Shown here piece after piece: positions 28,130 through 53,273 of a stretch of DNA of 55,242 nt. The notes beneath the pieces are model-generated. The model searched no databases and was not told where the DNA came from. It was given only the letters and a program-made list of their open reading frames with translations. The translations under genes and the position numbers were made by a program. How positions within the stretch are numbered: the stretch's first letter is position 1; each line of letters begins with the position of its first letter. Origin of the DNA: Sulfurimonas sp. (GTDB taxonomy: Bacteria > Campylobacterota > Campylobacteria > Campylobacterales > Sulfurimonadaceae); the NCBI GenBank assembly GCA_026988235.1, contig JALSLQ010000038.1, forward strand, positions 1-55,242, read 5' to 3'.

Positions 28130-28163
28130 ATATTTACAGTATATAAAACTATAAAGACATAAA

Positions 28164-28186
28164 GCCGGCACTAAAGTACCGGTTCC
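28164..28186. repeat. Single REP-like palindrome
   Basis: Core CCGGCACTAAAGTACCGG (28165-28182) followed by TTCC. The arms pair except for one C/A position, which on the minus-strand RNA becomes a U·G wobble. It opens the repeat cluster that fills the 256-bp gap between the convergent reductase and serA genes; apart from the repeats this gap holds nothing I can identify. Confidence 0.8.
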
Positions 28187-28198
28187 AAAGAACATACC

Positions 28199-28270
28199 GG
28201 AATCGGCATTTTAGTGCTAACTGTTATTTCTGTCATGCCACTCCCTGCCCGCACTAAAGTACGGGTTCCG
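28199..28270 (-). repeat. Composite REP (BIME-like) element 1
   Basis: Read on the minus strand: a CCCG-type palindrome (core CCCGTACTTTAGTGCGGG), a spacer containing GAGTGGCA and ending near AACAG, then a degenerate CGG-type palindrome. It is 72 nt long, like element 2, and has the same order as the copies at 50176 and 52225. Confidence 0.75.
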
Positions 28271-28288
28271 AAAAGCTACACATTCCTC

Positions 28289-28360
28289 GGAATCGGTACT
28301 TTAGTGCCGACTGTTGAAACATTCTTGCCACTTTCAGCCCGCACTAAAGTACGGGTTCCG
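28289..28360 (-). repeat. Composite REP (BIME-like) element 2
   Basis: Read on the minus strand: CCCG-type palindrome, spacer CTGAAAGTGGCAAGAATG then TTTCAACAG, then the CGG-type palindrome (core TCGGCACTAAAGTACCGA). It is 72 nt. The spacer matches that of the 50176 copy at nearly every base, so the pair of palindromes and the spacer move or evolve as one unit. Confidence 0.8.
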
Positions 28361-28385
28361 AAAATGTGTAAGAAGGGACGAAATT

Positions 28386-50021: not shown

Positions 50022-50369
50022 TATAATTTCCTTAGAGCAATAATAATGGTGCTATTTTAACCAATATTAGATTATTTAAAGATTATTTGCTTTTATGAGA
50101 GTATAATCTTTTAAGTAAGAAAGGCAAAAGCCTCCCCTCAATGGCATTAAGTTGAAAAAAGTGTGATGTTTTCCTGGAACCCGAACTTTCAAATGCTAAA
50201 GCATGACTTAGAAAAAAACTAAATTTTTTTCTGTAGTCCGGGCTGAGAGTGGCAAGAGTATTGCAACAGCCGGCACTAAAGTACCGGTTCCGAGAAAACA
50301 TTAATTTTCTTAACTTAATGGCGCTGTGCCACCCTCTTACCTATATATAAGAAACACTAGGAGTAGAAA
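50022..50369. other. 348-bp intergenic region with promoter and repeats
   Basis: Between divergent argB and the DUF308 gene. It has a plus-strand TATAAT at 50102-50107, a short hairpin AAGGC-AAAA-GCCT (about 50120-50133), a composite REP element (50176-50291), and imperfect outer inverted arms GGCATTAAGTTGAAAA (about 50143-50158) and TTTTCTTAACTTAATGGC (about 50305-50322). A TATATATAA before an AGGAG site serves the DUF308 gene. No convincing coding frame is present; the minus-strand frame across 50083-50301 is repeat-derived. Confidence 0.6.
50176..50291 (+). repeat. Composite REP element 3 with an expanded loop
   Basis: GGAACCCGAACTTT, about 45 nt of unrelated sequence, then AGTCCGGGCTGAGAGTGG, spacer, and CCGGCACTAAAGTACCGG with TTCC. 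The order (CCCG-type palindrome, spacer, CCGG-type palindrome) is that of the other copies, but the first palindrome is split by the insert, which contains its own small hairpins (ATGCT-AA-AGCAT). Confidence 0.7.
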
Positions 50370-50917: not shown

Positions 50918-52204
50918 ATGCAAACAAAAAAAGCTTTTGGACTTTGGAGTGCTGTCTTTTTAGGCATCGGTTCCATGGTGGGTGCGGGTATATTTATTGT
51001 TATTGGTCAAGCGGGAGCTATGGCTGGGAACATGGTCTGGCTTTCTTTTATTTTTGGTGGAATTATTGCATTACTAAGTGGCTATTCTCTTGCAAAACTT
51101 GCCGTAAGATATCAATCTCGTGGAGGAATTGTCGAGTATTTAGTGCAAGGTTTCGGTGAAAATATTTTTTCAGGTTCGATGGGTGTTATGTTTTACTTTT
51201 CACAACTCATAGCAATTGCTGCAGTTGCAAAATCTTTTGGAATGTATAGTGCAACTTTTATGCATAATGGAGATAGTTTACGGGTTAATATTTTCGCAGT
51301 TGGTGTTGTAACTTTATTTACTTTTATTAATCTTGTTGGCGCTTCTATCGTTGCTAAATCCGAAAATTTTATAGTTATCATAAAATTGGGTATTCTTATA
51401 ACTTTTGCTATTGCTGCTCTTTTTACTATAAAACCGGCTTTGTTAAGTGTAGCTGATATGCCACCTATTCATGGAATGATTTTCGCCATAGGTATTACAT
51501 TTTTTGCCTATCAAGGTTTTAATGTTATTACAAATACAGTCGAAGATATGGATAATCCAAAGGTTACAATGATGCGTGCTATGTTTATAGCCTTATTATT
51601 TGTTGCTGGGCTTTACATCCTTACAAGTATTTCAGTTCTTGGAAACTTACCACTAGATACAATCATAAAAACGAAAGATTATGCTTTAGCAGAAGCTGCA
51701 AAACCAATATTTGGAGAGTGGGGATTTAAAATTATGGCAGCTACTGCACTTTTGGCAACTGCTTCAGCTATTAATGCGACACTCTATGCTGTTTCTGACA
51801 TTGGATATACTATGGCAAAAGAAGGAAATCTTCCTCAGAGATACGAGTATAATGTTTATAAATCATACGAAGGACTTATAATAAGTACTGTGCTTATCAT
51901 ACCTATGATACTCTTTTTTAATCTTTCACAAATCACTACTGTTGCCGTCATTGTAATGCTTATTGTTCAAGGAAGTACGCATATAGCTCATTTAAATGTT
52001 ATTCAACAAACAGGTGCAAAAAAGTACCTTATTGTTTTAGCAAGTATTGCTATGTTTAGTGTTGCCGCTCTTACACTTTATTCAACTTACAAAACAATGC
52101 CAGAAATCGCATACTACCTTATAGCTGCATTTGCTTTAGCATTTACTACAGAGTATTTATTACGATATTTTCATAACAGGACTATTTCTAAACAAACGCA
52201 TTGA
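50918..52204 (+). CDS. APC family amino acid permease
   Basis: A 428-residue transporter with about 12 helices. It begins AFGLWSAVFLGIGSMVGAGIFIVIGQAG, the APC N-terminal substrate-binding signature, and keeps the helix-6 region FAYQGFNVITNTVEDMDNP. The substrate, an amino acid or polyamine, cannot be told. Its final codon (CAT) and TGA stop belong to the 100-nt repeat unit that starts at 52199; the other copies of that unit read CATTCAG here, which would not stop. Confidence 0.9.
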   Translation: MQTKKAFGLWSAVFLGIGSMVGAGIFIVIGQAGAMAGNMVWLSFIFGGIIALLSGYSLAKLAVRYQSRGGIVEYLVQGFGENIFSGSMGVMFYFSQLIAIAAVAKSFGMYSATFMHNGDSLRVNIFAVGVVTLFTFINLVGASIVAKSENFIVIIKLGILITFAIAALFTIKPALLSVADMPPIHGMIFAIGITFFAYQGFNVITNTVEDMDNPKVTMMRAMFIALLFVAGLYILTSISVLGNLPLDTIIKTKDYALAEAAKPIFGEWGFKIMAATALLATASAINATLYAVSDIGYTMAKEGNLPQRYEYNVYKSYEGLIISTVLIIPMILFFNLSQITTVAVIVMLIVQGSTHIAHLNVIQQTGAKKYLIVLASIAMFSVAALTLYSTYKTMPEIAYYLIAAFALAFTTEYLLRYFHNRTISKQTH

Positions 52205-52298
52205 GTTAAGCAATTTTTTCACAACGCGGACTTTAGTCCGGGCTGAGAGTAGTAAGAGAGTTACAACAGCCGGCACTAAAGTACCGGTTCCGAGAAAG
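52199..52298 (+). repeat. Tandem repeat unit 1 with composite REP element 4
   Basis: Starts CATTGAGTTAAGCAATTTTT and ends GGTTCCGAGAAAG. Within it 52225-52291 is a composite REP: CGCGGACTTTAGTCCGGG, a spacer with CTGAGAGTAGTAAGAG, and CCGGCACTAAAGTACCGG. The unit is repeated directly in 52299-52393. It fills the gap between the convergent permease and lpxK genes. Confidence 0.8.
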
Positions 52299-52393
52299 CA
52301 TTCAGTTAAGCAATTTTTCACAACCCGTACTTTAGTGCGGGCTTTGTGGCTTTAAAGACTAAGGCCTAGGTTAAAACCTAGGTTCCGAGAAAG
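52299..52393 (+). repeat. Tandem repeat unit 2, overlapping the lpxK 3' end
   Basis: Starts CATTCAGTTAAGCAATTTTT, continues CACAACCCGTACTTTAGTGC, then a diverged second palindrome CCTAGGTT-AA-AACCTAGG (52365-52382), and ends GGTTCCGAGAAAG. A third partial start, CATTCAGTTT, follows at 52394. The second palindrome differs in sequence from the other copies yet still pairs perfectly, a sign of selection for the structure or of a separate REP subtype. Confidence 0.78.
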
Positions 52394-53273
52394 CATTCAG
52401 TTTACCTTCTTTAATTTTTACCTCTAAATCCAAAAGGGAAAGAGGGAGTCCAAAATCTTCAATTTTTACATAATCTTTCAATGTAACAAGCAATGAAGTT
52501 GCTCCATCTGCTAATAAAATCTCTTGAAGTTCTGCTTTTGTGAAACTGTGATGATCTTCAAAATAATTTTTTGCTACAACAGTCGGCAAATATTTATCTA
52601 ATCGTTGTGGTCTTGCTATTGCAGTTACTAGGCTCATTCTAGATGTCGGGTTGTTTACATGTACCTCTCTTACAAAGTCAATCCCCTCTTTCACGACAAC
52701 TGCCTCTTTTGTTTTGTATAATCTCTCTCTATATGGTCCAGATGGAAGACAAGCATTGTTTTTTGTTTGTACATCTATTAAAATATCTAACTTTTTAATG
52801 TCATGTTTTGAATAAGCATCATCTAAAAATACAATTTTACAGCCTAACTCTTTTGCTTTTTGTAGTGCTATTTTTCTATCTTCACTGACTATGACAGTTG
52901 CTTGAGAGAGTTTTTTTGCATATATCATCGCCTCATCACCGCTTTGTTGTACATTACATGTAACAACACCTCGTTCTTTGACAACAATCATCCCTTTTGA
53001 TGCTCGTCCATATCCACGCAAAATAATTGCCGGTTTTTTATACTTTTGTGCAAGTGCCGTAACAAGTGGCGTTTTTCCGCTACCGCCTACGGTCAAATTG
53101 CCAATACTTACTATACTTACACCAAAGTCTTGGGGCTTTGAAAGTTTGTATCGTAAATACATCACAAAACAATAAAGCCAACTCAGAGGAAGCAGAAGAA
53201 AAGAAAGGAGTTTCTGCAAAGATTTTGGATTGTAGAAATACTCTTCAACCCAAAAAACAAAAGCTTTTTTCAA
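52371..53273 (-). CDS. lpxK: Tetraacyldisaccharide 4'-kinase
   Basis: A 300-residue inner-membrane kinase phosphorylating the lipid A disaccharide. An N-terminal membrane helix (about 22-42) precedes the Walker A motif NLTVGGSGKTPLV (about 58-70), then GYGRASKG and VFLDDAYSKHDI (family DDGxQH). The start appears to be TTG at 53273, 5 nt after the aminotransferase stop. The last nine residues (LNAFSEPRF) and the TAA are encoded by repeat sequence (52371-52400), so the natural C-terminus was replaced or slightly extended by a REP insertion. The catalytic part looks whole. Confidence 0.93.
   Translation of the reverse strand: MKKAFVFWVEEYFYNPKSLQKLLSFLLLPLSWLYCFVMYLRYKLSKPQDFGVSIVSIGNLTVGGSGKTPLVTALAQKYKKPAIILRGYGRASKGMIVVKERGVVTCNVQQSGDEAMIYAKKLSQATVIVSEDRKIALQKAKELGCKIVFLDDAYSKHDIKKLDILIDVQTKNNACLPSGPYRERLYKTKEAVVVKEGIDFVREVHVNNPTSRMSLVTAIARPQRLDKYLPTVVAKNYFEDHHSFTKAELQEILLADGATSLLVTLKDYVKIEDFGLPLSLLDLEVKIKEGKLNAFSEPRF

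Follow-up and report, generated by a model that had tools for sequence, protein, structure and literature searches.

A two-unit array of small palindromes resembling REP/BIME elements has very probably inserted into the 17-18 bp overlap in which an amino-acid permease gene and lpxK met tail to tail in a Sulfurimonas genome, and in doing so left the permease end as it was and rewrote that of lpxK (Table 1). Throughout, the window is the whole stretch of DNA that was analysed, 55,242 nucleotides in length. A sequence-only reading of the window had taken the array to form the 3' ends of both convergent genes. The ORF coordinates agree with it in placing both stops, at 52204 (permease) and 52371 (lpxK), in or touching repeat copies. 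Comparison with relatives bears the reading out for lpxK, whose last residues SEPRF and stop codon TAA are repeat-derived, but not for the permease, whose native end is shared with the repeat-free relative G011.

Table 1. Coordinates of the gene ends, the array and the associated mobile elements
Feature	Position	Strand	Details
Amino-acid permease gene (APC family)	50918..52204	+	ORF; PF13520 E 4e-35
Left copy GCATTGAGTT of native junction	52198..52207	.	Holds permease stop; ungapped alignment to G011 GCACTAAAGA and L214 GCACTAAGTA
Unit 1	52208..52297	.	Arm, hairpin GCGGACTTTAGTCCGGGCT, spacer, inverted hairpin AGCCGGCACTAAAGTACCGGTT, arm CCGAGAAA
Middle copy GCATTCAGTT	52298..52307	.	Separates unit 1 from unit 2
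Unit 2	52308..52392	.	Arm, hairpin CCCGTACTTTAGTGCGGGCT, spacer with CTTTAAAG, palindrome CCTAGGTTAAAACCTAGG, arm TTCCGAGAAA
Right copy GCATTCAGTT	52393..52402	.	Native lpxK bases (L, N and the first two of A), by alignment with G011 and L214
lpxK, tetraacyldisaccharide 4'-kinase	52371..53273	-	PF02606 E 6e-48; NF001892 over cut-off
lpxK end SEPRF + TAA, repeat-donated	52371..52388	-	Absent from relatives' lpxK
REP-associated tyrosine transposase	L180:992-1567		192 aa as listed (core 169 aa); flanked on both sides by hairpin arrays of the family
Full-length IS4-like element, 1,506 bp	G011:C1:1919821-1921326 (L185:622-2127)		Ends related to the 134-bp transposon

The array in the window is a real repeat structure. 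Its two hairpin-pair units (52208-52392) are flanked and divided by the ten bases GCATT(G/C)AGTT, and the three copies of these bases are the same except for one G/C position, where the left copy reads CATTGA and the others CATTCA, as the sequence-only reading had noticed. In each unit, framed by arms in a fixed layout, the hairpins are paired in inverted orientation, which is the BIME arrangement. The stretches 52286-52307 and 52381-52402 are identical over 22 of 22 nt, and two further repeats are nearly exact (30 nt at 90% and 24 nt at 92%). The hairpin core CTTTAGTNCG occurs four times in the window against an expectation of 0.19, a count reached in none of 100 shuffles, and the predicted RNA fold of the array beats shuffles with a z of -7.0. 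An Rfam search of the window gave no match. The same type of unit was found elsewhere in the examined loci, at L007, L009, L010 and L014 for unit 1 and at L011, L024, L025, L032 and L040 for unit 2. Two more arrays of the family are present in the window (28149-28364 and 50231-50302), and neither was seen to hold the stop of a recognised gene.

Small palindromes are commonly credited with reshaping gene ends, but to tell which end has changed one needs a close relative in which the site is empty, and such relatives exist here. The window's genome (G000) was compared with 36 other genomes of the genus, one genome per species. In G011 the junction is free of repeats and reads AAACAAACGCACTAAAGACACCTTC, as against AAACAAACGCATTGAGTT, the array and GCATTCAGTTTACCTTC in the window, and the window flanks align to this empty site without a gap. 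The permease of G011 is 84% identical to that of the window and has the same C-terminus, ISKQTH-stop (CAAACGCACTAA in G011, CAAACGCATTGA in the window). In the window the gene ends in CAT TGA (52199-52204), within the first GCATTGAGTT. This last codon and stop are ancestral, since the repeat-free G011 permease ends identically. The sequence-only reading had attributed both to the repeat, and had named repeat-free relatives with the same C-terminal residues as the observation that would speak against it; for the permease, G011 is such a relative. A gene end that overlaps a repeat has not necessarily been donated by it.

At the other end of the junction, the lpxK of G011 runs antisense to the end of the permease and terminates in KEGVFSAFV-stop, as against KEGKLNAFSEPRF-stop in the window. 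When the window flanks are joined in thought they read KEGKLNAFV-stop, in parallel with G011 and with the VLSAFV of another genome, L214. As had been stated, unit 2 and the third partial copy contain the last nine codons of lpxK (LNAFSEPRF); the claim that all nine are a new C-terminus given by the repeat needs narrowing. Judged from the alignment of relatives, SEPRF and TAA come from the repeat and L-N-A is native. The F is ambiguous because relatives read S-A-F-V-stop at the same place; it is coded by repeat bases yet matches the ancestral F. The stop is the TAA in the middle of the palindrome CCTAGGTTAAAACCTAGG of unit 2. The frame that lpxK follows through the repeat, GAA CCT AGG TTT TAA, is common to other copies of the family, many of which likewise read EPRF-stop across the CCTAGG palindrome. 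The NF001892 (NCBIfam LpxK) match stops at residue 292 of 300, and the new tail lies beyond it. The C-terminal tails of lpxK vary widely across the genus, so that the change is likely to be neutral.

G011 is not alone: the convergent pair overlaps at its ends in several genomes that have no repeat at this junction. The overlap is 17 bp in G011, 18 bp in G014 and L206, 20 bp in L229 and L210, 8 bp in G033 and L209, and 45 bp in L281 and L215; in G023 and L208 the genes are separated by a 663-bp gap. Some of the overlapping pairs carry a more distant permease (44-55% identical), which suggests that the tail-to-tail overlap is probably old. In L214 (Sulfurimonas sp. MAG, JALSKR010000002.1) the same overlap holds an unrelated palindromic element of 261 bp, whose terminal inverted repeats begin with TACCAATCCCCATTAAAGAAACG and of which that genome has two copies. 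Beside this element the permease end ISKQTH-stop is intact, and the lpxK tail is rewritten to IPIPIKETIFKQ, read from the element's own end. This insertion is independent of the array in the window. The overlapping stop-stop junction has thus tolerated unrelated insertions in two lineages, and tail-to-tail overlaps look like tolerant landing sites because each of the two insertions spared one protein end and rewrote the other.

The palindromes belong to a family with 111 segments matching the array in G000 (1.8 Mb, 93 contigs). At E 0.001, matches were found in only three of the 36 other genomes (G011, G034 and G033). GGAAC precedes the stem (CCCGTACTTTAGTGCGGG and variants) in 50 of 54 cases; in both units of the present array, ACAAC stands there instead. 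Like REP/BIME elements, the family consists of imperfect palindromes with a conserved short head and many copies in one genome. Its head is neither of the GTAG (GT(A/G)G) nor of the CGTC type, and the family is best described as REP/BIME-like but with a head of its own, outside the GTAG and CGTC subgroups. Our literature search brought up no description of REPs or RAYTs from Sulfurimonas, nor of the present family.

As in REP/BIME systems, a Y1 transposase gene is flanked by the same palindromes (L180, L182). In G000 it is bordered by arrays of four and six hairpin cores, and in G011 a protein 88% identical is encoded beside the same neighbour gene. The transposase matches NF047646 (E 8e-21) just under the NCBI cut-off, with 74 of 80 bits, and carries HIH, Y and NPLKAG, which are RAYT motifs (PMC2817692). 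Near the more distant homologues of G007 (46%) and G009 (57%) there are no hairpin cores of the family, and a search in G033 and G034, which are drafts of 73-78% completeness, gave no match. The G000 frame can start inside a hairpin (TTG), which places 23 extra residues ahead of the conserved ATG. G000 encodes another Y1 transposase (L181, 260 aa), but this is an unlikely partner, as its 3.5-kb stretch is devoid of hairpin motifs.

The lpxK gene is not the only one that the family touches. Stops of ORFs of at least 100 aa lie inside or touch 7 of the 37 G000 arrays examined, a raw count that includes the transposase gene itself; two of the seven were compared with relatives. A NUDIX gene ends in TKTSRH-stop, with its last residues and stop from a hairpin, and relatives differ (KLKQTL, KLDKI and others). 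A glycosyltransferase-9 (GT9) gene ends in LSPLSPH-stop, also from a hairpin, and most relatives end earlier and differently. The G011 copies of both genes end in repeat-like sequence as well. Two of the seven ORFs, at L166 (167 aa, EPRF-stop) and L012 (128 aa), had no Pfam match and probably do not represent genes. The general idea that these palindromes edit gene ends holds, with further support from the NUDIX and GT9 loci and from the unrelated insertion in L214.

Many copies of the family are carried by a second mobile system, an IS4-type miniature transposon of 134 bp. The terminal inverted repeat CAATGCCATTAAGTTAAG and its variants occur in 24 pairs in the loci examined, several of them spanning 134 bp and enclosing hairpin pairs, and many are flanked by palindrome copies such as AGACTNNAGTCT or CCCTTTGGG. 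Some copies, e.g. those at L007 and L014, have CAATGCCATTAAGTTAAG at both ends. The full-length element in G011 has a AGGTTTTA..CCT palindrome as its insertion site and encodes an IS4-like transposase (PF01609; NF033590 E 1.7e-24, below cut-off). Both the IS4-like element and its miniature derivative insert into REP palindromes. Another miniature transposon, whose terminal repeats are of a third kind (CACGGTAATTCAAAAC / CACGGTAATTCAAAACTCAGC), surrounds the same hairpin pair at L026 (about 1450-1690) and L029; the L026 copy has a 9-bp duplication, ATAAAGTTG.

With the empty site, the native gene end, the family and its genomic link to a transposase established, we propose that the two-unit array inserted into the tail-to-tail overlap, and that about ten native bases, GCATTnAGTT, ended up on both sides of it, possibly as a target-site duplication. 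The permease would have kept its own end, since its stop lies inside these bases. The lpxK frame would have run on through one hairpin arm to the TAA inside CCTAGGTTAAAACCTAGG, losing the ancestral valine and stop and gaining SEPRF and a new stop. The hairpins were probably mobilised by the tyrosine transposase that lies amid the same hairpins in G000 and G011. The odd arm common to both units (AAGCAATTTTT, CACAAC) suggests a tandem duplication followed by hairpin exchange. The left border is ambiguous within 52199-52207 because the left arm ATTGAGTTAAGCA is similar to the native junction and also to CATTAAGTTAAGCA, the inner part of the terminal repeat in the miniature transposon. Since family arms have CATTAAGTTAAGCA at the same place and would also read H-stop in frame, one could suppose that CATTGAGTT is the element's own left arm, that the native permease end was lost and that the repeat donated both gene ends. 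This is improbable: a donated H-stop would match the native one of G011 only by coincidence, the permease of L214 ends in the same way, and at one and the same position the three local copies have G or C where the family arm has A.

How the array entered is less clear-cut. Tyrosine transposition of the IS200/IS605 type normally proceeds without larger target duplications (PMC2817692), so that a DDE element would better account for a ten-base duplication, and the element of the 1,506-bp type makes duplications of about 10-12 bp. The arms and hairpins are those of the 134-bp transposon copies, and G011 contains a full IS whose ends are related and which codes for an IS4-like transposase. It is therefore conceivable, if doubtful, that an intact IS4-type miniature transposon inserted, was tandemly duplicated and later lost its outer terminal repeats, the tyrosine transposase being uninvolved here. 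However, neither outer terminal repeat (CAATGC.. or ..TTAACTTAATGGCATTG) was found at 52198-52402, and the ten bases on both sides of the array adjoin the inner module directly and not a terminal repeat. With GCATTnAGTT on both sides and the outer terminal repeats missing, two routes are compatible with the junction: either the inner module inserted and duplicated ten bases, or a miniature transposon inserted and was trimmed afterwards. A retained function, as bidirectional terminator or mRNA-stabilising hairpin, would suit the strong predicted fold and a location between convergent genes that is usual for REPs (PMC3733652). We consider it unlikely, because relatives manage without the array, many copies of the family lie elsewhere and no T run follows the hairpins. 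The preferred reading thus remains an insertion that spared the permease and rewrote lpxK. More tentatively, the two mobile systems might feed each other. REP pairs mobilised by the tyrosine transposase would ride in the IS4-type miniature transposon, which would prefer the centre of the same hairpins, so that each insertion would supply a target for another. The inner REP module may also insert by itself and duplicate a GCATTnAGTT-like site as it does so, in the transposon as well as at the lpxK/permease junction.

Rickettsia palindromic elements are small palindromes found in frame inside coding genes, where they add residues to proteins; here, in contrast, the effect is confined to the final residues of lpxK. 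The present family resembles the REP/BIME elements and RAYTs described by Nunvar et al. (2010, PMC2817692) in its short head and imperfect palindrome, its inverted pairs, its dozens of copies and a RAYT gene with the same hairpins on either side. It differs from RAYT-associated REPs (PMC2817692) in that the head is GGAAC and not GT(A/G)G, the hairpins are AT-centred and many copies sit inside miniature transposons. Several IS elements, among them ISPsy8, ISPa11 and ISPpu9, target REP palindromes (PMC1525189), as the IS4-like element and its miniature derivative do here; unlike those elements, the miniature derivative carries REP pairs, i.e. its own next target. GTAG- and CGTC-tagged REPs are located mostly between convergent or co-directional genes, and their termini reportedly often give flanking ORFs a stop codon, about 10% lying at the ends of coding regions (PMC3733652). 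The supply of stop codons by REPs at gene ends (PMC3733652) and the targeting of REPs by IS elements (PMC1525189) have thus been published already. Unlike in those REPs (PMC3733652), neither tag is present here, and the empty site tells which gene end was changed.
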